From the NCBI GenBank assembly GCA_902793195.1, contig CADBCS010000013.1, positions 1 to 64,000 of the forward strand: 64,000 bases of DNA, in the 5' to 3' direction. The notes under the pieces are model-generated. The model saw only the letters and a list, made by a program, of their open reading frames with translations, did not search any database and was not told where the DNA came from. Position 1 is the first letter of the stretch. Every line of letters starts with the position of its first letter. This stretch comes from an uncultured Coriobacteriaceae bacterium (GTDB taxonomy: Bacteria > Actinomycetota > Coriobacteriia > Coriobacteriales > Atopobiaceae). The position numbers and the translations under genes are program-made. Of this stretch, positions 30,810 through 46,101 are shown piece after piece.

Positions 30810-30850
30810 GAATGTGTCGACCTATCGAGGGGGGGTAACCCATTGATAGG
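30810..30850. repeat. GAATGTGTCG-CCTATCG repeat, left copy
   Basis: GAATGTGTCGACCTATCGAG with CCTATC/GATAGG arms forming a small hairpin. A similar copy lies at 33288-33329, on the other side of the DUF4143 ATPase gene. Confidence 0.6.
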
Positions 30851-31050: not shown

Positions 31051-31125
31051 GAATCCTTGAACAACAGCCCAAGAGCCAGCGTGACGATTTCGATCGCCAC
31101 CGCGGCATCGTTCGCGACGCGCCCG

Positions 31126-31176
31126 TTTTGGAGATGTGAACTCAGGCCGGGGGGACGCGAGTTCACATCTACAAAA
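31126..31176. repeat. Palindromic element AGATGTGAACTC, hairpin 1
   Basis: Arms TTTTGGAGATGTGAACTC and GAGTTCACATCTACAAAA pair except for one base; loop of 15 bases. It belongs to the same family as the elements at 31231 and 33145. Confidence 0.8.
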
Positions 31177-31230
31177 GATTGCGAATTAATGCCCTCGCCA
31201 ACTGGTGTTTTTTCACTTTTGATGATCTGT

Positions 31231-31353
31231 TTTTGTAGATGTGAACTCGGAACGCGCGCCGCGAGTTCACATCTACAAAACCGCGTCTAGGTGCGCCGCC
31301 GCTAGCAGGGGTTTTGCCGCGCGGGAGTCAGAATTGGCGGAGATGTGAACTCG
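31231..31353. repeat. Palindrome plus half-site element, left of the ATPase gene
   Basis: A 19-bp perfect hairpin (TTTTGTAGATGTGAACTCG and its complement, 12-base loop), a 60-base spacer, then a half-site AGATGTGAACTCG followed by CCATGCG. The same arrangement with the same 60-base spacing recurs at 33145-33268. Nothing protein-like is seen between here and the iterons at 31519. Confidence 0.85.
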
Positions 31354-31518
31354 CCATGCGTGCGGTTGCGGGCGGGGATCCCAGCGCTTCCTCGGTGGGG
31401 GTGACAGCGCGGAGTCGGGGCCGCCTGGACCGTACGTCGAATCGGCCAACGGCCGCTTGGCCATTGCGAACTTAAACACCTATGCATGAAGCAGTTCACC
31501 TCGCCGAAGGTTTTCCTA

Positions 31519-31599
31519 GGATTGCGTAACGTGATGCAAGATCTAACAATGGATTGCGAATCGTGTAGAATACAGGCAACAACGGATTGCGAAACGTGA
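31519..31599 (+). promoter_or_regulatory. Three iterons before the DUF4143 ATPase gene
   Basis: GGATTGCGTAACGTGA (31519), GGATTGCGAATCGTGT (31551) and GGATTGCGAAACGTGA (31584). Spacings of 32 and 33 bases put all three on one face of the helix, directly before the start codon. A fourth, weaker GATTGCGAA lies at 31178. Probably an operator for the ATPase gene. Confidence 0.7.
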
Positions 31600-31610
31600 A
31601 AGAAGACCTT

Positions 31611-32972
31611 ATGCTCAGACGCAAGGCGTATAGCAGGATGCTCGAGTGGAAGCGTGAGTCCAACGGCTCGACCGCCCTTCTCGTGGAGGGTGCGAGGCGC
31701 GTGGGCAAGAGCACCCTCGTGGAGGAATTCGGGCGCAGTGAGTACCGCTCGTGCCTCGTTGTCGATCTCTTCCAGGCGCCAGCGGAGGTCAGACAATACT
31801 TCGAGGACAACCGTAACGACTTCGACACGCTATTCCTGCTGCTGTCCACCTACTACCGTGTGGAGCTCTTCGAGCGTGACACGCTCGTCGTGTTCGATGA
31901 GGTGCAGGCCTATCCCCAAGTGCGCGGTCTCATCAAGTACCTCGTTGCTGACGGGCGCTACGACTACATCGAGACGGGCTCGCTCCTCTCGATCAGACAG
32001 AACGTCGACGGCATCGTCATTCCCTCGGAGGAGATCGCGATGAGGCTTGATCCCCTCGACTTTGAGGAGTTCTGCTGGGCGATGGGCGAGGGGCAGCTCT
32101 TCGATTTGGTTCACTCCTGCTTCGAGCGGCTGAAGCCGCTTCCTGACAACCTCCACCGGAGAGCCATGAGGCTCCTGCGGGAGTACGTCCTGGTGGGAGG
32201 CATGCCCAAGCCGGTCGCGACTTACGTGGAGAGAAGGTCTTTCTCGCCAGTCGACGAGGAGAAGCGCCACATCCTCGAGCTCTACCGGAATGACGTCGCA
32301 CGATTCGCGAGGGGATACGAGTTCAAAGTGGTCTCGATTCTCGACGGCATCCCGGGGCAGCTCTCGAAGCACGAGAAGAAGTTCACCTTGGCCTCGCTCG
32401 GCAAGAACGCCCGGATGCGCGAGTACGAGGAGGCATTCTTCTGGTTGGGTGATGCGCGCATCGCGAACATCTGCTACGCGGCGGCGGACCCCAGCGTGGG
32501 ATTCGCCCTCAACATGGAGCAGTCTTCCCTCAAGGTCTACATGGCCGACACGGGCCTGCTCGTGACGCTCGCCTTTTCTGACTCCGCCCAGACCGGAAAG
32601 GAGGTCTACCGGGCCGTGCTCCTCGACGATCTGGGCATCAACGAGGGCATGCTCACCGAGAACCTCGTCGCGCAGATGCTCGTGGCTGCGGGGCACAGGC
32701 TCTTCTTCTACTCGCAGTCGGGCAGGAGGGAGGGGGAGGAGCGCATGGAGATAGACTTCCTTGTGGTGAGGTCCTATGCCAACGCGGCGGGGAAGCCGAG
32801 GGTGAGCCCCGTTGAGGTGAAGTCCCCCAAGCAGTATGGCACCACATCCCTCGACCGCTTCAAGGGGAGGTTCGGGAAGAGAGTCGGGTCGGAGATAGTG
32901 CTCCACGCCAAGCAGCTCAGGGTGGAGGGGGACAGGCTCTACCTGCCGCTCTACATGGCGGGGCTGCTTTAG
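31611..32972 (+). CDS. AAA ATPase with C-terminal DUF4143 (nuclease-like) domain
   Basis: Cytoplasmic 453-residue P-loop protein. Walker A is LLVEGARRVGKSTLVEEFG, Walker B LVVFDEVQAYPQVRGLI, and sensor-type IETGSLLSIRQN follows. The middle has LLREYVLVGGMPKPV. The C-terminal DUF4143 domain has VYMADTGLLVTL, ENLVAQMLVAAGHRLFFYSQ, EIDFLVV and SPVEVKSPK, the E-D-ExK pattern of restriction-endonuclease-like folds. Function is unknown; many such genes occur per genome and behave like mobile or selfish cassettes. The ATG MLRRKAYS is preferred to an in-frame TTG eight codons upstream. Related remnants lie at 34.6 and 46.9-47.8 kb. Confidence 0.88.
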   Translation: MLRRKAYSRMLEWKRESNGSTALLVEGARRVGKSTLVEEFGRSEYRSCLVVDLFQAPAEVRQYFEDNRNDFDTLFLLLSTYYRVELFERDTLVVFDEVQAYPQVRGLIKYLVADGRYDYIETGSLLSIRQNVDGIVIPSEEIAMRLDPLDFEEFCWAMGEGQLFDLVHSCFERLKPLPDNLHRRAMRLLREYVLVGGMPKPVATYVERRSFSPVDEEKRHILELYRNDVARFARGYEFKVVSILDGIPGQLSKHEKKFTLASLGKNARMREYEEAFFWLGDARIANICYAAADPSVGFALNMEQSSLKVYMADTGLLVTLAFSDSAQTGKEVYRAVLLDDLGINEGMLTENLVAQMLVAAGHRLFFYSQSGRREGEERMEIDFLVVRSYANAAGKPRVSPVEVKSPKQYGTTSLDRFKGRFGKRVGSEIVLHAKQLRVEGDRLYLPLYMAGLL

Positions 32973-33144
32973 GGAGGGCTATACCTCAAATTCGTCCCCC
33001 TCTACATGGCTCATCACCTATAGGGCAACCTCCACGCCGCGCGCATGCACCCCCGGCCAAGGGAGCGGTACCAAGCACTTCGGCCCGGCTTCGTGCGCGT
33101 GGTGCTTGGCAAGGAGTGACGTGGCATCTCTCGTGGCGTGCCCG

Positions 33145-33268
33145 TTTTGGAGATGTGAACTCGGTTCGGGGAAGCGCGAGTTCACATCTCCAAAAACGCG
33201 GAAAGGCGCGCCGTCGCTAGCTGGGCTTTTGTCGCGCGGGGTCGAAAACTGCTGGAGATGTGAACTCG
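33145..33268. repeat. Palindrome plus half-site element, right of the ATPase gene
   Basis: 19-bp perfect hairpin (TTTTGGAGATGTGAACTCG and its complement, 13-base loop), 60-base spacer resembling the left copy (GCGCCG-CGCTAGC-GGG--TTTTG-CGCGCGG), and a half-site. Same orientation as the left copy. The stretch 32973-33335 holds no gene. Confidence 0.85.
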
Positions 33269-33287
33269 CCATGCGCCGAACCGGCCA

Positions 33288-33329
33288 GAATGTGTCGGCC
33301 TATCGAAGGAGATAACCCTCATTGAAAGG
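33288..33329. repeat. GAATGTGTCG-CCTATCG repeat, right copy
   Basis: GAATGTGTCGGCCTATCGAA followed by ATAACCCTCATTGAAAGG, resembling the copy at 30810-30850. It adjoins the end of the FMN reductase gene. Confidence 0.6.
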
Positions 33330-34586: not shown

Positions 34587-34661
34587 TTGCTCAGATGCAG
34601 GGCATATTTCAAGATGCTCGAGTGGAAGCGGAAACCCAGTAGGACGGCAGCCCCACGCAAC
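34587..34661 (+). pseudogene. N-terminal remnant of a DUF4143-type ATPase gene
   Basis: LLRCRAYFKMLEWKRKPSRT closely matches the start of the intact ATPase (MLRRKAYSRMLEWKRESNGST), including an identical stretch at the DNA level around AAGATGCTCGAGTGGAAGCG. The match ends before Walker A, so only about 25 codons remain. Confidence 0.75.
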
Positions 34662-35828: not shown

Positions 35829-35900
35829 GGCAGGGATTGAACGAAAAACACGTCCCCCGTTCCAGGCAGGGATTGAACGAAAAACACGTCCCCCGTTCCA
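35829..35900. repeat. Tandem 36-bp repeat, two identical copies
   Basis: Two perfect head-to-tail units (35829-35864, 35865-35900) beginning GGCAGGGATTGAACG and ending CGTTCCA. The core is shared, inverted, with 19116-19141. Confidence 0.85.
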
Positions 35901-36009: not shown

Positions 36010-39000
36010 ATGAATAGACGTACCCCAGCTCTTGCACCCACCATCTTCCTGCTTGCTCTGTGTGCCTGCCTGTTGTCGCTGCCTCGCCCGGCATATGCCG
36101 CATCCATGGTGGACCTCAGCGTGGACGGCGCGAAATCCTACCCCAACTCGCTCGCCGATTTGCAAAAGGCACTCAAGGCGGCGGGCGGCAAGAACAAGAC
36201 GGTGGTCATCGATTTCAACCAAGACGTATACGGCGACCCCTTGGAGTTGCCAAAGAAAACCACGATAACGATCAATCTCAACGGCCACACCATCAACCGC
36301 AACCTCACCTCGCCAGACTCGTCGGGTCACGCCATGCTGGTGGAGAGCAACTCAAGAGTTACCATAAACGGTGGAACCACCACTGCGCAAAAGCAGGTAA
36401 AGGCATGGAACCCCAACGGTACGACGACGTGGCGAACCCTCACCGTGAGCGGTCTGATAACTGGTGGCTACAGCACCAACAAGAGCGGTGGCATCTACCT
36501 GGAGAGCGGCGCGCGCCTGACGCTCAACAACGTGACTATCGCCGGCTGTCGCGCGGAGCAAAAGGGCGGCACGGATGGCTACGGAGGTGGCATCTGGGCG
36601 GGCGGATCCGACGTCACCGTCGCGCTTAACAACTCCAACGTGAGCTACAACTACGCATACAACGACGGTGGTGGCATCGCCAGTACGTCCAAACTGTTCA
36701 ACCTGTTCATGAGCAACTCAAGGGTGGCCAACAACTTTGCCCGACGCGACGGGGGTGGCATCGCCCTCAAGGCGTCCAAGGCTACCGTAACCGGCGACGC
36801 GAACACGACGGTTGCCAACAATTCCTGCGGTGACGAGTACGGCGGCGGCGTGTACGTAAACGAGACGTCCGTGTCCGTCAGCGGCTTTACCGTGGAGCAT
36901 AACCAAGCCAAGTACGGCGGCGGCGTGGCGACGCGCAACCACTCCATCACGCTCTCGTTGCTCAACATCCACGACAATACGGCCAAGTACGGCGGCGGCG
37001 TGTACATTGGCGACTTCACCAATGTCGCGAGCACCGCAACCGACTCCATGGGCGGCTGCACCATAACCAAGAACAGTACGACAGAGGATCGCACGTGGGG
37101 CAGGGGCGCAGGCGTCTATGTGGTCGGCAGCGGCAGGGGATGGCTCGTAAAGAGCTTCTCTTTGGAAATCGGCGGCAAGACCATCATCAAGGACAACGGC
37201 TCTGGGTCCGGAAACCTCATCATGGGCTCTACCGGCGTGCATCCCAACTTTACGCTTACTGGCGACTCCGACGTATACATGGGATACGAGACCATCACCG
37301 AAGATGCCGTCCAGGTGACGCACGACCGCCTCAAGGGCCCCAACTGCATTCGCTATCTTAAGGCCGAGAATCTTGGGTATCACTTTACCTACCATCCCAG
37401 CGGCAGCAAGCGCAAGATCTTCTATGTCAAGAACGGCAAGGACGACGCAGAGAAGTACGGCACGACCTATGGGGAGCGGCAAACGGTGGACAGGATCGCG
37501 TCGGCTGCCGCAGCGCCCAGAACCGATGGCAAGACCTACAAAGGCTATCCCGTAACGCGCGGCTACGTGCGATTCCCGAGCGGCGTGGAAGAGGAAGTTG
37601 ACCTCGCGACGCCGTTCTTCTATTCGGACGGTTACTTCTTCGACGACCCCGAGGTCTACAACCCCCACCTGGCCACCGCGTCCATGTGCATGGCCATGAG
37701 CGGGTTCTACCTCAATTCCGGCAACAAGAACCAAGCGGACGGCTACATAAACAAGCACGCCTCGGCGCGTCAGTTTATGGCCGACATCGGCTGCGACGAC
37801 CAATCGACCTACGTCAACGACTTCAACGTGCAGAAGCCGGGCATCGACACCATTGGCGTGACCATCTCCCACAAGGAGCTCAAGCACGAGGACGGCACGG
37901 GTTCGGACCGCTATCTCATACCGGTGGCCATCCGCGGTTCCAACTACGAGGCCGAATGGACCAGCAACGTTACGCTCAACAAGGCCACAGACGTACCGGG
38001 TGGCGAGGCCGCGGGCTTTGCGAGCGCCGCGAACAAGGTGTACAAGGAAATCCGCTCCTACATGCAGCGCCACAACATCCCGGCATACAAGGCCCGGTTT
38101 TGGGTGGCGGGATACTCGCGCGCGGGCGCCACGACCAACCTCGTCTGCAAGCGCCTTATCGACAATCTGTCCGCGGGCCAGGCGAAGGTGTTCGGCTATC
38201 CCATGGAGGCTCCGCAGGGTGGCGCGAACGCAACGGGCATCGACGACAGAAACTACTTCTCGATTCACAACGTAATCAACCAGGCCGACCTGGTGCCGCT
38301 GGTGGCGCCCTCGGCCATGGGCTTCAAGCGCTACGGCGTGGATCACTACATCCCGGGCACGAACGCATCGACCCCTGAGCTCGTGGAGAACGACGCGGTA
38401 ACGCGCGCAGGCGTCGGCGGTCCCAACAGGCGCTACCTGTATGCCGACAACATCCCCATATACAGCAACGACAGCAACTATGGCAACGAGGGTGCAATTG
38501 CGCAGCTCAAGGCCATAGACCCCAACATAGTGTTCGATGACTACTTCGCCACGTGCAGCATGGACTTCGTTCCGTCGCCGAGCATATTCGAGAAGCCCAC
38601 CGGCAAGACGGTGGTGTATGAGGAGCAATTCCTGCGGGACTTCCTCAACGAGCTGCAGGTGGCGGCGATTTCGAATCGCGACTCTTACGCAAGCGACCTC
38701 GAGCCCACGTTCCGTACGGTTATGGGCATGCTTTTCGGCATGGAGCCTAGCAGGACCAAGGCGTTCATGGATCGGGCCTCCACGACGATGAACCGCTTTG
38801 ACATGCTGTTCGCGTCTTGGGACGAGCACAGCATGTTCCGCATATGGTATTCGCTCATCGGCGATTGGAACAAGTCGAGCGCCGCCAAAAAGAAGGAGTA
38901 CACCGACTACATCTACAAGAAGCTCAAGGAGACGGACGCGCTCGACGTGCTCACCAAGGAAGAGCGCGCCAAGTTCGACGCCGCCTGGCCCAAGCTGCTC

Positions 39001-42000
39001 GACTTCATCATGCGCGTATTGGACCGCGACTACAACACCAAGAGCTACGATACCGCAAAGATGATGATGCTTGGTACCTTTGGGTACAACACGTCGCGCA
39101 TCATGGCCAATCACTATCCCGAGATCACGTTGGCGTGGCTGCGTACGTACGACGATTTCTACACCAACGAGCGCACGGCAACGGCCATACAGAACGCCCC
39201 GTCCGTGTCGACGCCCTCGGCAAGCGTGGGCAAGACGAACCTCAAGGGCGGCGGACAGGTCAACGAAATCCCCAGCGGAAAGCAGACGGTGACGCTGGAC
39301 GTGACCAACGCAACGGGCGAGGCCATCTACTACAAGATGTCTGGTGCCAAGACGTCGGCCAACACCTGCAAGAACGGCTATGACATCTATCGTGGCGGCA
39401 TCGACCTGGGCAGCGTCGCGAAGGACGATACGTATACCATTACGGCATATGCCATCAGCTATGGCACCAAGAGCCCGGAGGCTACGTACCAGATCAGCGT
39501 CACGGGAGCCCTGCATAAGGTCAAGGTGTACAACGAGTACAACGCGCGCCTTAATCGGAAATCCGAAACCTATGAGTGGTCGGAGGGGACGCAGCAAGAG
39601 GTCGAGGCCAAGGAGACCGCGGAGCGGCAGCTCGACAGCTGGAGGGTGTGGGACGAGAAGGGCCGAGACGTTACGAGTCAGGTGCTGGGCGACCAGCAAA
39701 TGAGGAAGAAGACGGCCACGTTCACCATGCCTGCGGGTGGGCAGTACGGCCTCTCCCAGGACTACAAGCTCACCTTCTCGGCATCGTTCAAATGGAAGAC
39801 CAGAGAGTACCCCAAGCATACCTTTACGGTTAAGGTCGGCAGCAGCACCGAGACGTTCCAAGCGGCGGAAAACCAGACCTTCAAGTACGACGCGACCAGC
39901 AAGATTCCGGCGGGCAAGCATTTCAAGGAGTGGAAGGTCACCGACCAGGCTGGCGCCGACGTCACGAGGTTCATGAGGCCCGGATACCGCAACAGCAGGA
40001 CCGAGGACTTCGTGTGGGGGTCAAAGAGCAAGCCCAACCTGTACTGCGAGGTAACCGGCAACAATCAGACGGTCAGCCAAACAAACGAGCCGAGGGCATA
40101 CACCTTCGCCCAGGGCTACAACCTTACGTTTGAGGCGGTGCTCGAAGACGTTGCCACGGTTGACGCCATCAAGATACGGGGCGTCGGCGAGGCGGCGTCC
40201 GGCGCAAACAAGGCGACGATCGAGTATTACGCGGGCTCGAACAAGGTACACGAGCTCAGGCAGTACGCGATCTGGAAGAGCAGCCAAAGCACGGCGAGGA
40301 ACGAGGACGCCACGGTTACCACTACGACCACCTACAAAGCCATGCTCAACTGTCCCGTGGTGCCGGGAAAGCCGTTTGTCGCCGACGACGAGGCTATGAA
40401 GGTGGAGGCCGAGGTCGGCGGCGTGCTCAACAAGGAGGGGTACAAGGTCGAGTGGAGTCGCCAGGGCGACGGTGCCATGCAGGTGACCATAACCAAGGTG
40501 GAGACCCGCACCACGGGCATGCCCACGTTTGCGTATAGCATCACGGCCAACGCATGCGACAAGAACGACGCCGACCGCAACGTGCTGAGCGAGGGAGGCC
40601 AGGAGCTCACCAGCACGCAAACGCTCAATGCGGACGCCGATGGCGTGCTTTGGTTCGTCAACGGGCCGGATGTGCGTGGCGGCAGGTTCTGTGGTTACGA
40701 GGCCGCCACGGACTCCGGTTTGGAAAAGACCAACGCGAACGATCCCTACGACAACACCTTCAAGGTCGTGGACAAAACCAAGCCGCTTACGGTCAACATG
40801 CTGTACGTGCCCGAGATCTCCCAGATCGAGGTCGCAAAGTTCCCGCAGCCGGTGACGGGCGAGCCGCTGGCGAGCAAAGACAGCGAGGGGATCGACCTCA
40901 CGTGCGTCGTCGATGAGGGCTCGGCGTTTGCGGGTGCGTTCAAGACGCAGGTAACGAGCCTCGACTGGCAGCCGACACCGGGTGCGGACCAAAAGGCGGC
41001 GGGTGACACGGCATACGTCGCCGAGCTGGAGCTGGCGTGCATTGATGAGGACGACGGGCCGTACGAGTGCGCCTTCGCGCTGGGCGGCGTGTCGGTCTCC
41101 ACGGGTTCCGAGCATCCCGCCTTCGAGTCCGCCTCGTTCGATTCTGCGACGGGCAAGCTGTGCCTGTACCTCAACAAGACAGAGCGTGACACCAAACACA
41201 AGGTGACGGTGGTTGACTGCCAGAAGGACGACACGGCCGAGGACGCAAAGGCCAAGACCTACTCGTGGAACGAGGGCGAGGCCAAGAGCGTTACGGCCAA
41301 GAGCTACGACGTCTTCGCGTTTAGTGGTTGGAACGTGACCGACGGCACGCACGACGCCAAGGAGGCCATGGGGCTTACCGACGATGACCTCAAGCAGCAA
41401 ACGCTCGCGTTCGTTATGCCAAACAAGGGCGGCACTCTGGGCGACGGCTACGAGTTGCACCTCGAGGCGAGCTATGTGCCCAAGGCCAGCGGCCTGCGCG
41501 CGATCATCGCCGAACCCACGGGCACCGCGCTTGCGGATACGGCCCAAATCAAATGGAGGGCCACGGAGGAGAGCGAGCAGCGCACGGTTACGGTGCCGGT
41601 GGCTTGGGGTGCGAGCGTTCAGTCCGGCGGCGACCAAACCGACTTGTGTACGTACACGGCCACCATGCGCCTGGATGCGGCCGCGGCGGCGGAGTTCACA
41701 CCTGGCGACCTCACGGTTGCGGCGGGGCGGTCCGACGCCGAAGACTACGCAAACGTGACGACGGCCTATAGCCGCAACGCCGACGGCAGCATGACGGTGA
41801 GCGTAACGTTTGCACCCATCCAGACGGCTGCGAACAAGGAAGACGTAACCATCGAGGCGTATGACGCCAACGCCGGCAGCAAGCTTGCGTCGGTGAGCGA
41901 CACAACGCTGACGGTCTCGTGGGACATGGACGACAACGGCGCGTTCGAGCTGCTTCCGCCGGCCATGGACGGCGCGGCCTTTGTTGGCTGGGAGGTGCCG

Positions 42001-45000
42001 GACAATTCCAAGGTCGAGCGCATAGGCACGACGGGCAGCAGGTTTAGGCTCAAAGATGCCGTCGCCGGAGACCCCTGCAACGTGCGTGCGTTGTATGTGC
42101 CCGAGGTCACCTCGGTAACCATAGCCGGCGTCGCCGCGCCCGTGGCCGGGCAGCAGCTCACCGAGCTGTCGAACAACAACGTAACGGCAACCCTGGGCTT
42201 CTCGGATGCGACCAAGACGCTGTTTGGCGAGAACGCCCTGCCAGGTGGCGCGGACGCCACGTCACGCATAAGGGTAGCGAACCTTGCGTGGACGCCCGAG
42301 GCGGCTGGCAATGAGGCCGACTTCGAGACGGCCTACACGGCGGCGGCGAAGGTCGTTGCGCGTCGCGTCAAGATGAAAGGCGGTCAGGAGGTGGAGGACG
42401 GCGTCTGGCGCTTTGTGTATGCGAGGGGAGCGAGCGTGCGGGCGGACGGAGCCTCGACCACACGCCTGAATGCCGCCGCAGACACCGCCGTTCTGCACTT
42501 CCCGCAAACGGGACGCGACAAGTACCACCAGGTGAACATCGCAAGGAGCACGTACAACACGAACGGTGAGGAGTACGTAACGAGCTGGCACGAGGGCAAC
42601 ACGTACGTCGTTACGGCTCGCGGCATCGACGACAAGCTGTTCTTCGGCTGGACGATCGTGGACGGGAGCGGTGCGGACGTTGCTACCGGGCTGGGTCTCT
42701 CTGCAGACGACCTCAAGAGCGAGACCATCCGCGTTACCATGCCGACCTACGTGGAAGGCGGAGCCTTTGCCAAGGACTACCGCCTTGCGATTGCGGCCAA
42801 CTACGCCGACAAGCTCAACGCGATAACCGCCACCGTGCCGCAGCCCGCCCTCGATGCCGAGCAGCTACCCACCAAGGCCACGCTCACGTGGGGAGAAGGG
42901 CAGGACCAGACCGCCGAGGTCGACCTCTGGTGGGATTGCGAAAGCGAGGTCACGGAGGGCGAGGGCAAGACCGTTACCGAAAGCTACACGGCCGCCATGC
43001 AACTCGACGCCCAAAGGGGGCAGGCGTTTGCGCGTGCCGTGACCGTTACGGGCGCCACCACTTCCGTCGACGGACCGCAGGTTAGGGAGAACGGCGCCAC
43101 GTGGACTTGGAATCCCGATGGCAGCGCCACCATTACCGTGGCGTTCGACCCCATCGTCACCCACGTGGAGGCGCGCAGGGTCGTGGTACAGGCCTGCGAC
43201 GTCAACACGTCCGAGCAAGCAAAGGTCGCGGGTACGGAGGACGAGGAACTCACCCTGCCCGTGGACGGGGAGAACACGTTTGCAGCCTACGCACCCGAGG
43301 TCGCAGGCGCCGAGTTCGTTGACTGGGTCGTGCCCGACAAGGTTGCGAAGGTGAATGCGCCCCAACCAGATTCGCAGCATGGCGCCGACGCCTTGGAGGA
43401 TGGCCGTGCGGTGGGCTTCTTCCAATTCGAAGGCGATGCACCCGCCGGCGCTACGTACACCATAAAGGCGCTGTACAAGCCCGTGGTCGACGTCGTCCAG
43501 ACCGTGTTTGCCGCACCGAAGGCCGGCCAGGCGATGGCCACGAAGGACGACGCGACCGCCAACTTTACGCTGCAGAACGACGGGTTCTCTCCCGTGACCG
43601 TTGCGGTAGGCGCGCTTGCGTGGGATCCCGCTGCCGAGGCGGGCGGCACGGCTGCCTACGGCAGGAAATACGACGCGACGGTAACGCTTGCGCCTGCCGA
43701 GGGCAAGCAGTTCGCATATGCCGACGACCTGCTGCCCGACTACGAGGTAGCGGGGGAGGGTGACGAGGACGACGCGGCCATGGTGGAATACGCCGTGGAG
43801 GACCCCGCGCACACGATGTACGTGAGCTTCTACCAAACGGAGACGCCTGGCCTGCAGAGGATTGTGGATTCCTATCCCATAGTTGCCACCAACGACAAGA
43901 ACAGCGCGGCAGTCCTCAAGCTGCTGCTTCCCACTCAGGTGGACATTGAAGTCGTGGGCAACGCCACAAAGAAGGCGAACGTGACCTGGGACGACCCCGT
44001 TTGCGACGAAGACGGAGGCAAGGCATACGAGTCCTTCTGGTATGCCGAGGGCACGATCACGCTGCCCGACGGCGTGACCCTTCCCGACGACGCGTCGCCG
44101 GATGCCCTTAGGGTGTGCGTTCCCATATACGTCATGGCCTCCGACACCCTCAACCTGCTCGACGTGGAGCAGCCAGCCGACCTTACGGACGTGGACCCGA
44201 ACAGCGACATAGCGCAGCAGCTGCCTGCCACCACGACCCTCACGATGGAGGACGGCGTGCAGGAGGACGTTGCGGTCGAGTGGGGCGAACCCACGCTCGT
44301 GGAAGACGGCGAGGATATGAGCGAATCCGTCTGGACGGTAACGGGTGCGGTAAAGACGCCGCTGCCGAGCTGGATCGTCAACCCCGAGGGCGCGGGTCAC
44401 GTGGACCTTACGCTCGCCCTCAACGCGTATGTAAACCCGCCCGACCGTCAAAGGGAGCCGGCTGATCCGCCCTACGCCACGCTCGACGATGGCATATTCG
44501 ACCTCTCGCAGGTAATCTATCTGGACGCCCACAATCCGAATGCGCGCATCTACTACACGACCGACACGGGCGCCGGCCTCGCGGACTTCGAGGAGTACGT
44601 GCCCGGCACCCCCATCTACCTGGATCGCACGACGGTCGACGAGGACAGCCTGATGGCGATACAGGCATACGCCACCGAGGAGGGCAGGGACCCAAGCGAG
44701 GTCGTGTCGTACCTGTACATGCTCGACGAGGCCATAGACGTCCCGGAGGGCATGGAGCTTGTGTACAACGGCGAAGAGCAGCTGGGCGTGTGGAGCGGTG
44801 ACGACTATGCGCTCATGGGCCCCAGTTCCGGCTCTCGCATCGACGAGTACGGCGATGCCGTGGCGACGAGCGCGGGCACCTATACCGTGCGTGCTCACAT
44901 CGCGGACGGTCTGCAGTGGCAGTTGGGCGAGCCCGACGAAGAGGGCAACGCCGAGACGACCACTGACGACCAGACGGTTACCTTCAAGATTCTGCCCGCT

Positions 45001-46101
45001 TCGATCACGGAGTGCTCGGTGGACGGCATTGCCGCGCAGACCTACGCGAAGGGCGGCGCCAGGCCAAAGCCCACGGTCAGGCTCAACGGCCACGAGCTGG
45101 TGGAGGGGCGCGACTACACGCTGTCGTACGAAGACAACCTTGGCATAGGCAAGGCGCGGGCAATCGTGACCGGCAAGGGCAATTTCAAGGATAGCCTCAC
45201 GGTTGAGTTCGACATCGTCGGTGGCGACACGCTTCCCGTGACCTATGCAGGCCACGCGCAGAAGAAGGGCGATGTCGCAGCGTCCGGCAACGGCAAGACG
45301 CTCGGCACGACTGGGCAGGGCCTCAGGCTGGAAGCGCTGAGCGCAACGGTGGAAGGTGGCTCGATCGAGTATCGCAGCCACCTGCAAAAGACTGGCTGGG
45401 AACCGAGCTGGTCAAAGGACGGAGCGCTTTGCGGCACTACGGGAGAATCGCGGCGTATGGAGGCCGTGCAGATGAGGCTCTCCGACAGGTTGACCGAGGC
45501 TGGCTACCATGTGTGGTATCGCGTCCACAGCCAGACCTACGGCTGGCTTGGATGGGCGAGCGACGGTGCGCCTGCCGGCACCTCTGGCATGAGCAAGCGT
45601 CTCGAGGCGGTGCAGATCGTGGTGCTGCATGGTGACGCAAGGCCTAAGGGCTACGATGCGGCCAAGCCGGCATTCTACTCACATGTTACGGTGAACGCTC
45701 ACGTGCAGCGCGATGGGTGGCTCGGGTATGCGCCCGCCGGTGTGTTTGGCACGACGGGAGAGAGCAAGCGACTGGAGGCCATGTGGGCAAAGGTCGGCTT
45801 GCCGTACGCGGGAGGCGTCGAGTACCGGACGCACGTGCAGCGAATCGGTTGGCAGGATTGGGTCGCAGACGGAACGATTGCCGGTACCACGAGGCAGGCC
45901 AAGCGCATCGAGGCCATCCGCATGCGGCTTACGGGCGAGAATGCCAAGCACCTGAGCGTGTGGTATAGGGCGCACGTGCAGGGCATCGGTTGGACCAAGT
46001 GGGTGCACGACGGTGCCTTGGCCGGTACCACGGGACGAGGCCTGAGAACCGAGGCCGTGGAGGTGGTCGTTCTCACTAAGGGTGCCGTTCCCAACAAGTA
46101 G
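36010..46101 (+). CDS. Giant secreted multidomain protein: beta-helix, lipase-like domain, Ig/InlB-like repeats, ChW repeats
   Basis: 3363-residue surface protein. Signal peptide 1-30 (TIFLLALCACLLSLPRPAYA). A right-handed beta-helix (about 35-440) has repeated YGGGVYVNETSV, KYGGGVATRNHS and KYGGGVYIGD turns. An alpha/beta-hydrolase region follows (about 530-900): RFWVAGYSRAGATTNLV carries the GxSxG nucleophile, and SIHNVINQADLVPLV a likely catalytic Asp and YGVDHYIPG a possible His. A chitobiase-like Ig unit comes near 1100. Several long InlB/Bacteroidetes-type repeats follow (HKVKVYNEYN, KHTFTVKVGS, DKYHQVNIAR), each with a 'W-EG...KSVTAK' core and a 'TMPAGG'-like end. Big_4-like Ig units follow near 2700 (DSDI-QQLPATTTLTMEDGV). 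At the end are a Gly-rich Ig unit and about six ChW repeats (HLQKTGWEPSWSKDGALCG and so on). No LPxTG motif is seen, so ChW binding is the likely anchor. GAGGAG precedes the ATG. Confidence 0.9.
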   Translation: MNRRTPALAPTIFLLALCACLLSLPRPAYAASMVDLSVDGAKSYPNSLADLQKALKAAGGKNKTVVIDFNQDVYGDPLELPKKTTITINLNGHTINRNLTSPDSSGHAMLVESNSRVTINGGTTTAQKQVKAWNPNGTTTWRTLTVSGLITGGYSTNKSGGIYLESGARLTLNNVTIAGCRAEQKGGTDGYGGGIWAGGSDVTVALNNSNVSYNYAYNDGGGIASTSKLFNLFMSNSRVANNFARRDGGGIALKASKATVTGDANTTVANNSCGDEYGGGVYVNETSVSVSGFTVEHNQAKYGGGVATRNHSITLSLLNIHDNTAKYGGGVYIGDFTNVASTATDSMGGCTITKNSTTEDRTWGRGAGVYVVGSGRGWLVKSFSLEIGGKTIIKDNGSGSGNLIMGSTGVHPNFTLTGDSDVYMGYETITEDAVQVTHDRLKGPNCIRYLKAENLGYHFTYHPSGSKRKIFYVKNGKDDAEKYGTTYGERQTVDRIASAAAAPRTDGKTYKGYPVTRGYVRFPSGVEEEVDLATPFFYSDGYFFDDPEVYNPHLATASMCMAMSGFYLNSGNKNQADGYINKHASARQFMADIGCDDQSTYVNDFNVQKPGIDTIGVTISHKELKHEDGTGSDRYLIPVAIRGSNYEAEWTSNVTLNKATDVPGGEAAGFASAANKVYKEIRSYMQRHNIPAYKARFWVAGYSRAGATTNLVCKRLIDNLSAGQAKVFGYPMEAPQGGANATGIDDRNYFSIHNVINQADLVPLVAPSAMGFKRYGVDHYIPGTNASTPELVENDAVTRAGVGGPNRRYLYADNIPIYSNDSNYGNEGAIAQLKAIDPNIVFDDYFATCSMDFVPSPSIFEKPTGKTVVYEEQFLRDFLNELQVAAISNRDSYASDLEPTFRTVMGMLFGMEPSRTKAFMDRASTTMNRFDMLFASWDEHSMFRIWYSLIGDWNKSSAAKKKEYTDYIYKKLKETDALDVLTKEERAKFDAAWPKLLDFIMRVLDRDYNTKSYDTAKMMMLGTFGYNTSRIMANHYPEITLAWLRTYDDFYTNERTATAIQNAPSVSTPSASVGKTNLKGGGQVNEIPSGKQTVTLDVTNATGEAIYYKMSGAKTSANTCKNGYDIYRGGIDLGSVAKDDTYTITAYAISYGTKSPEATYQISVTGALHKVKVYNEYNARLNRKSETYEWSEGTQQEVEAKETAERQLDSWRVWDEKGRDVTSQVLGDQQMRKKTATFTMPAGGQYGLSQDYKLTFSASFKWKTREYPKHTFTVKVGSSTETFQAAENQTFKYDATSKIPAGKHFKEWKVTDQAGADVTRFMRPGYRNSRTEDFVWGSKSKPNLYCEVTGNNQTVSQTNEPRAYTFAQGYNLTFEAVLEDVATVDAIKIRGVGEAASGANKATIEYYAGSNKVHELRQYAIWKSSQSTARNEDATVTTTTTYKAMLNCPVVPGKPFVADDEAMKVEAEVGGVLNKEGYKVEWSRQGDGAMQVTITKVETRTTGMPTFAYSITANACDKNDADRNVLSEGGQELTSTQTLNADADGVLWFVNGPDVRGGRFCGYEAATDSGLEKTNANDPYDNTFKVVDKTKPLTVNMLYVPEISQIEVAKFPQPVTGEPLASKDSEGIDLTCVVDEGSAFAGAFKTQVTSLDWQPTPGADQKAAGDTAYVAELELACIDEDDGPYECAFALGGVSVSTGSEHPAFESASFDSATGKLCLYLNKTERDTKHKVTVVDCQKDDTAEDAKAKTYSWNEGEAKSVTAKSYDVFAFSGWNVTDGTHDAKEAMGLTDDDLKQQTLAFVMPNKGGTLGDGYELHLEASYVPKASGLRAIIAEPTGTALADTAQIKWRATEESEQRTVTVPVAWGASVQSGGDQTDLCTYTATMRLDAAAAAEFTPGDLTVAAGRSDAEDYANVTTAYSRNADGSMTVSVTFAPIQTAANKEDVTIEAYDANAGSKLASVSDTTLTVSWDMDDNGAFELLPPAMDGAAFVGWEVPDNSKVERIGTTGSRFRLKDAVAGDPCNVRALYVPEVTSVTIAGVAAPVAGQQLTELSNNNVTATLGFSDATKTLFGENALPGGADATSRIRVANLAWTPEAAGNEADFETAYTAAAKVVARRVKMKGGQEVEDGVWRFVYARGASVRADGASTTRLNAAADTAVLHFPQTGRDKYHQVNIARSTYNTNGEEYVTSWHEGNTYVVTARGIDDKLFFGWTIVDGSGADVATGLGLSADDLKSETIRVTMPTYVEGGAFAKDYRLAIAANYADKLNAITATVPQPALDAEQLPTKATLTWGEGQDQTAEVDLWWDCESEVTEGEGKTVTESYTAAMQLDAQRGQAFARAVTVTGATTSVDGPQVRENGATWTWNPDGSATITVAFDPIVTHVEARRVVVQACDVNTSEQAKVAGTEDEELTLPVDGENTFAAYAPEVAGAEFVDWVVPDKVAKVNAPQPDSQHGADALEDGRAVGFFQFEGDAPAGATYTIKALYKPVVDVVQTVFAAPKAGQAMATKDDATANFTLQNDGFSPVTVAVGALAWDPAAEAGGTAAYGRKYDATVTLAPAEGKQFAYADDLLPDYEVAGEGDEDDAAMVEYAVEDPAHTMYVSFYQTETPGLQRIVDSYPIVATNDKNSAAVLKLLLPTQVDIEVVGNATKKANVTWDDPVCDEDGGKAYESFWYAEGTITLPDGVTLPDDASPDALRVCVPIYVMASDTLNLLDVEQPADLTDVDPNSDIAQQLPATTTLTMEDGVQEDVAVEWGEPTLVEDGEDMSESVWTVTGAVKTPLPSWIVNPEGAGHVDLTLALNAYVNPPDRQREPADPPYATLDDGIFDLSQVIYLDAHNPNARIYYTTDTGAGLADFEEYVPGTPIYLDRTTVDEDSLMAIQAYATEEGRDPSEVVSYLYMLDEAIDVPEGMELVYNGEEQLGVWSGDDYALMGPSSGSRIDEYGDAVATSAGTYTVRAHIADGLQWQLGEPDEEGNAETTTDDQTVTFKILPASITECSVDGIAAQTYAKGGARPKPTVRLNGHELVEGRDYTLSYEDNLGIGKARAIVTGKGNFKDSLTVEFDIVGGDTLPVTYAGHAQKKGDVAASGNGKTLGTTGQGLRLEALSATVEGGSIEYRSHLQKTGWEPSWSKDGALCGTTGESRRMEAVQMRLSDRLTEAGYHVWYRVHSQTYGWLGWASDGAPAGTSGMSKRLEAVQIVVLHGDARPKGYDAAKPAFYSHVTVNAHVQRDGWLGYAPAGVFGTTGESKRLEAMWAKVGLPYAGGVEYRTHVQRIGWQDWVADGTIAGTTRQAKRIEAIRMRLTGENAKHLSVWYRAHVQGIGWTKWVHDGALAGTTGRGLRTEAVEVVVLTKGAVPNK

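Follow-up and report, generated by a model that had tools for sequence, protein, structure and literature searches.

Palindromic repeats flanking a DUF4143 ATPase gene belong to a dispersed family of intergenic DNA elements in a genus of rumen Coriobacteriaceae

The repeats on either side of a DUF4143 ATPase gene in a 64,000-nucleotide stretch of DNA from an uncultured Coriobacteriaceae bacterium (the window) belong to a family of nested-palindrome DNA elements that are dispersed through the intergenic regions of one genus of rumen Coriobacteriaceae and have sparse relatives elsewhere in the family. This element family is previously unnamed, and a search of titles and abstracts in the literature returned no recognised description of such elements in Coriobacteria. 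We favour, with moderate confidence, the reading that the elements are REPIN- or MITE-like arrays of putative DNA-binding sites that are copied occasionally and then held by selection, and to which the ATPase is incidental. The features around the gene, in window coordinates, are as follows.

31101-31125, + strand: sequence to the left of array a that recurs at 33120-33144, within the 76-nt repeat D2 (83% identical)
31126-31354, + strand: array a, an element of arm class W with all five sites: two hairpins, two spacers and a half-site
31126-31176: hairpin 1 of array a, followed by spacer 1
31200-31223, + strand: long spacer core of array a, AACTGGTGTTTTTTCACTTTTGAT, a word common to the arm classes of the genus
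31231-31280: hairpin 2 of array a, followed by spacer 2
31301-31316, + strand: short spacer core of array a, GCTAGCAGGGGTTTTG, within spacer 2
31339-31354: half-site of array a
31587-32972, + strand: AAA_14 and DUF4143 ATPase gene, 461 amino acids, with a match to PADLOC PDC-S01; probably a bystander of the element
33058-33144, + strand: left flank of array b, with homology in the relative G015 to the sequence left of its single full array (L054, 3616-3755)
33145-33269, + strand: array b, a shortened three-site element
33145-33195: hairpin of array b, followed by a 60-bp spacer with the short core
33216-33231, + strand: short spacer core of array b, GCTAGCTGGGCTTTTG
33254-33269: half-site of array b

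The sites of array a start at 31132 (+), 31159 (-), 31237 (+), 31263 (-) and 31341 (+), a layout of 0/27/105/131/209 that is also that of arrays elsewhere in the same genome (G000), and those of array b start at 33151, 33178 and 33256. The exact 12-mer AGATGTGAACTC occurs eight times in the window, against a mean of 0.02 in 100 dinucleotide shuffles. A preliminary description of this DNA had reported two direct copies of a hairpin followed by a half-site, and we confirmed the hairpins at 31231-31280 and 33145-33195, with perfect 19-bp arms, as well as the interval of exactly 60 bases to the next AGATGTGAACTC, with the half-site in the same orientation, at both copies. The extra hairpin that it placed at 31126 is real (31126-31176) but is not a separate feature, being the first hairpin of array a. 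The hairpin of array b together with its left flank matches hairpin 1 of array a and its left flank, and the right part of array b matches hairpin 2 and spacer 2; on this pattern one 105-bp unit would have been lost from array b, which has the appearance of a local copy of array a lacking that unit. The outer pair of repeats noted in the same description was also found (30810-30831 and 33288-33309; 22 bases, 20 of 22 identical). Each copy of this pair is followed by a short inverted repeat around CCTATCGA, and among 356 loci the 22-base motif was present only in seven overlapping loci from the same window region.

Counting the palindrome across the genome, as the preliminary description had proposed, gave 47 exact 12-mer cores in G000 (24 forward, 23 reverse), against about 0.17 expected from base composition and none for a reversed-pattern control. 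Eleven arrays hold 45 of these cores; one of the two lone cores (C7:79791) sits in a decayed element that still shows CTAGCTGGGATTAT, and the other is at a contig start. Eight of the G000 arrays keep all five sites, with at most one mismatch per site, at 0/27/105/131/209 or the mirror of this spacing. Homology among the arrays is mostly confined to the element, and the flanks differ.

Across the genus, the general form is a nested palindrome of about 160 bp in which one arm occurs four times, with an AACTGG..TTTTACC..TTTGAT word and a TAWWWTA centre. One element reads R-spacer-R'-loop-R-spacer-R', where R is an arm of about 14 bp and the spacing is exact; the spacers share either the AACTGG..TTTTACC..TTTGAT word or an AGCTGG..TTTTG word. 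With a 14-base arm, the sites R>, R'<, R> and R'< lie at offsets 0/58/85/143 in classes X and Y, and the offsets of classes Z and U equal these once arm length is allowed for. Class W has a longer unit plus one extra R'-loop in front. Its hairpin centres are about 104.5 bp apart and neighbouring dyads in class Y are 42.5 bp apart, both of which are arithmetically near whole helical turns. We counted about 20 arm sequences, which outside classes W and V mostly start AGTG or AGTT and are usually preceded by TTA or ATA. All arms within one element agree, and R differs between lineages and often also between elements of one genome (at least four arm classes in G013, two each in G004 and G007). In several elements (L227, L228, L297 and L301) the two halves match almost perfectly, including at positions that otherwise vary, with an inner-arm identity of 0.92-0.96 in a range of 0.59-0.96 over 26 elements, which suggests that one half may be copied from the other. 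Y elements in G010 and G014 are polar, carrying ACCA in one half and ACCG in the other; in 24 of 28 scorable elements a TATGCA-N6-GNTATA flank is found on the side of the ACCG half.

Exact cores were found in 4 of 40 genomes (G000, G015, G002 and G008), all within the genus. A scan of named genomes for the core returned ten stretches, from the Coriobacteriaceae MAGs RUG12554, RUG14867 and RUG11163, the RUG names denoting rumen genomes. With the whole element as the query, other species matched only at the AACTGG..TTTTACC..TTTGAT spacer word, and these matches, when read, had the same architecture with different arms. As a pattern, this word occurs in 9 of 396 genomes of the class, namely six of the genus and three with single matches that do not have the architecture. 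A covariance model built from 17 elements matched every one of the 16 genomes of the genus. Of 105 further genomes sampled from the family it matched 6, in two cases with a single hit; elements were inspected in most, not all, of the model-matched genomes.

Comparison of elements at orthologous places revealed which of their parts are constrained. In comparisons between species, 2% of arm sites differ in W and 10% in Y, against 28% and 44% of other element positions. In the W set, which comprises five ortholog comparisons at four loci (one compared with two species), differences fell on 7 of 336 arm positions, 14 of 117 positions in the CTGG cores and 175 of 636 in the rest (arms versus rest, Fisher P about 1e-27). 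The Y set compares G010 with G014 at 10 of 14 pairs, the other four having a member that is cut by a contig end or was unscored in the four-site scan. Here, 54 of 560 arm positions, 72 of 540 core positions and 21 of 130 loop positions differ, as do 149 of 340 in the variable spacer and 270 of 600 in the 30-bp flanks (Fisher P for the arms about 5e-32). The variable spacer and flank in Y are equally diverged, whereas arms, core and spacing are kept, and in many loci the spacing is identical, with no indels. Neutral decay of dead insertions does not yield such retention. Repeated copying from one master does not fit either, because the variable spacers stay locus-specific.

In the reading we favour, each element would be a phased array of predicted sites for a sequence-specific DNA protein, with one protein per arm class. 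The candidate binder is probably a transposase- or nickase-like protein or a domesticated descendant of one, although a structural protein fits the sequence evidence equally. By analogy with REPINs and MITEs, elements may be copied now and then to new places, where they would persist under selection for protein binding, and the arms within an element might be kept in register, perhaps by copying between the palindrome halves. Counting against this reading, the several classes found in one genome (G013, G004 and G007) would require several proteins. The usual explanation for REPs and MITEs invokes a transposase together with neutral decay, whereas here the arms and spacing appear to be selected in old orthologous copies, and one arm class appears to take the place of another at matching positions. 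Were a binding protein to be found, the elements would provide a natural system in which DNA-binding specificity changes together with all its genomic sites, and rumen Coriobacteriaceae would gain a genome-architecture element that has neither an Rfam family nor a description in the literature searched.

To relate position to arm class, we took the 840-bp segments adjoining the elements and compared them between genomes and between classes. There were 26 proximal-proximal and 23 proximal-distal matches, whereas proximal-distal matches should outnumber proximal-proximal ones about 1.8-fold if position were unrelated (the matches are clumped); the proximal-proximal excess is modest, and cross-class positions are few. 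Downstream of a GyrI-like gene, a class T element lies at 129 bp in G015 and class Y elements lie at 134 and 125 bp in G014 and G010, and at a second gene class T lies at 222 bp and class Y at 219 and 222 bp; overall, T and Y positions span 122-134 bp at one gene and 219-222 bp at the other. With seven T and 33 G014 elements, these two coincidences have a P of about 0.003, a rough value that assumes random placement among about 3,000 intergenic regions and that target preference would weaken. Beside a gene of the SHxSALxxTR type, the G008/G009 class lies at 178-184 bp and class Y at 173-177 bp; beside a further gene, the distance is 172 bp for class Z in G000 and 181 bp for the G007 class (possibly paralogs, at 69% identity); and beside a GNAT gene, class Y lies at 76 bp and class Z at 156 bp. 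The G000 W element near the GyrI gene is on the opposite side and so does not occupy the same place. It is possible, and we propose it only tentatively, that the positions are older than the sequences, with the array network staying at the same intergenic places and the recognition sequence being exchanged between lineages. If so, a DNA-binding protein family would repeatedly reset its specificity, and tens of genomic sites would follow.

Paralogs at unrelated sites are 77-93% identical, and their similarity stops near the outer arms or in some cases takes in 40-90 bp of flank; their ends are sharp, as in a query match of 1142-1313 for an element at 1148-1305. No clear target-site duplication was seen in 34 Y elements (2-10 bases, all offsets, against shuffled pairing). 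The preliminary description had also proposed looking for genomes with an empty site holding a single element, and no clean one emerged from 16 genomes searched with the flanks of the C4 array and of the G014 element beside uvrB. These searches met either broken synteny or a differing gap, the gap being 57 and 187 bp in G007 and G003 and 705 bp in G014. With neither a target-site duplication nor a clean empty site, it is dispersed similarity only that points to movement. At one G015 element (L057) synteny with G000 is interrupted: the two sides of this element lie on the G000 contigs C2 and C12, both of which end at or carry an element. The elements resemble bacterial MITEs (RUP, ERIC, Correia/NEMIS) in being short (<250 bp), non-coding and dispersed between genes, with terminal inverted repeats and sharp ends. 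They differ from MITEs in the lack of a target-site duplication among the 34 tested, in their four or five internal arm copies, in the strong constraint on arms at old orthologous sites and in that a parent insertion sequence was not found. As regards a parent with the same terminal repeats, 45 of the 47 W cores in G000 lie in arrays, and draft assemblies may miss repeated insertion sequences. A phage or plasmid origin was rejected: 14 single viral-contig matches of the W arm were judged to be chance, two other patterns gave none and plasmids gave none.

That the palindromes are REP-like, as had been suggested from the window, holds in so far as they are a family of palindromes dispersed between genes, but none of the REP-type transposase genes located has an element in the flank of about 1.5 kb that was read. 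The classical REPIN/BIME account, in which a REP-associated Y1 tyrosine transposase (RAYT) is responsible for both the spread and the upkeep of the palindromes, seems unlikely to apply here. Matches to Y1_Tnp (PF01797) do occur in 15 of 16 genus genomes, many of them RAYT-like frames of 250-300 amino acids, and alternating, regularly spaced palindromes with lineage-specific arms resemble REPs as described in a published account (PMC2817692). However, the search for a REP-associated transposase that had been put forward with this suggestion covered 30 Y1_Tnp loci and gave no convincing element nearby, the sole element-model match in flanks of about 1.5 kb having an E value of 0.4, whereas published RAYTs are always REP-flanked. 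G011 has no Y1_Tnp match yet 13 element-model matches (model matches only). Like REPs, BIMEs and REPINs, the elements are extragenic palindromic repeats, paired or arrayed in regular alternating orientation, with lineage-specific arms, several groups per genome and long persistence. They differ in their copy number (10-35, against a usual >100), in a spacer word that is constant across arm classes, in keeping position while the arm class differs and in that no element-flanked transposase was found. Nor is there a general GTAG (or GTGG) head outside the palindrome across arm classes; GTAG lies within the palindrome of W and V arms and is absent from X, Y, Z, T, U and other arms.

We think it quite unlikely that the elements are chromosome-architecture sites, bound by a host protein at a domain boundary or in segregation or replication. 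Their intergenic, strand-neutral placement, conservation in place and tens of copies are consistent with such a role, as is the orientation bias of Y elements with respect to GC skew (24 of 34, P 0.024), but W elements have no such bias (8 of 21, P 0.38), the distribution is clumped with no periodicity seen and there are several arm classes per genome. Known protein-bound chromosomal sites such as matS and parS are short, palindromic, sequence-constrained and strand-neutral to genes. Unlike these, the elements are fixed multi-site arrays with several arm classes and tens of lineage-specific variants.

A role as operator arrays for a transcription factor acting on adjacent genes is very unlikely. 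Arms and helical spacing are kept in place, with W hairpin centres about 104.5 bp apart, as such arrays might require, but the strands of neighbouring genes show no relation to the elements: in a set of 92 elements (three entered twice), 71 have a neighbour on each side no more than 1 kb away, and for these the neighbour strands were ++ in 23, -+ in 21, +- in 15 and -- in 12, and oriented Y elements split 17 versus 17 and 19 versus 15 for neighbour strand. We considered the TATGCA-N6-GNTATA motif on one side of Y elements as promoter-like and rejected this, as it is unrelated to gene strand. Scans of selected neighbour genes with Pfam, NCBIfam and PADLOC gave no recurrent partner. A family of about 400 amino acids that starts SHxSALxxTR recurs beside W, X and Y elements (L159, L179, L186 and L057); the members scanned had no match in Pfam, NCBIfam or PADLOC.

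The preliminary description had proposed that the DUF4143 ATPase gene moved in as a cassette, with the two repeats acting as boundaries, an explanation that we regard as very doubtful. The gene matches PDLC04792 (PADLOC PDC-S01) at 1.2e-103 and PF13635 at 2.8e-18, and this likeness to PDC-S01 and to Pfam DUF4143 concerns the flanked gene only, not the repeats. PDC-S01 is a phage-defence-candidate model, and a rumen survey reportedly encountered it more often than any other individual locus (PMC13356809). Two loci do lie between direct duplicates: the DUF4143 gene, flanked in G000 and, with one copy decayed to a single site, in G015, and a PF09820 ATPase gene in G010 and G014, where the element duplicates around it are 92-93% identical. 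Moreover, in G015 a W array lies no more than 2.5 kb from 3 of the 16 DUF4143 genes, where 0.25 would be expected (P 0.002). However, only 1 of the 12 in G000 is near an array (0.22 expected). In G015 the orthologous ATPase gene (97% protein identity) is preceded by a full array and followed by a single surviving site, which places the flanking pair before the split between G000 and G015; this age counts against the cassette, as does the lack of a clean empty site. PF09820 ATPases number 9, 9, 23 and 16 in four genomes; at one orthologous locus elements lie on both sides in G010 and G014 and on one side in G000 and G015, and G010 has one further such locus with an element, but as we read it these genes show no general proximity to elements. 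Few of the elements examined adjoin an ATPase, and most have none. Taken together, these observations argue weakly for a cassette. In our reading, the ATPase is mostly incidental to the elements, which undergo local duplication in variable regions and have no general carrier role, although this leaves the excess in G015 unexplained.

We give almost no credence to the elements being a structured RNA gene family: strong palindromes and compensatory changes across classes would fit, but G-U is as frequent as A-C among non-pairs (43 of 225 against 42; in Y, 63 against 58), so neither strand is favoured as RNA, 22 of 34 Y elements have a mismatch in the innermost pair of the arm, no Rfam family matched above its gathering score, and compensatory changes with G-U intermediates on one strand were not found. 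Covariation within class Y is limited to pairs 57/99 (P<0.0005) and 5/151 (P 0.003-0.009), and arms covary across classes; both kinds of covariation would also fit a constraint at the level of the hairpin and to that extent count against the binding-site reading.

Downstream of array b in the window, 66 bases at 34588-34653 that start another open frame share 74% identity with the DUF4143 gene at its 5' end (31612-31677) and resemble what would be left of a second such gene. At 35829-35900, 36 bases are perfectly duplicated in tandem (GGCAGGGATTGAACGAAAAACACGTCCCCCGTTCCA twice), followed at 36010-46101 by a 3,363-amino-acid secreted adhesin-like frame; a similar region adjoins the C19 array (L049).
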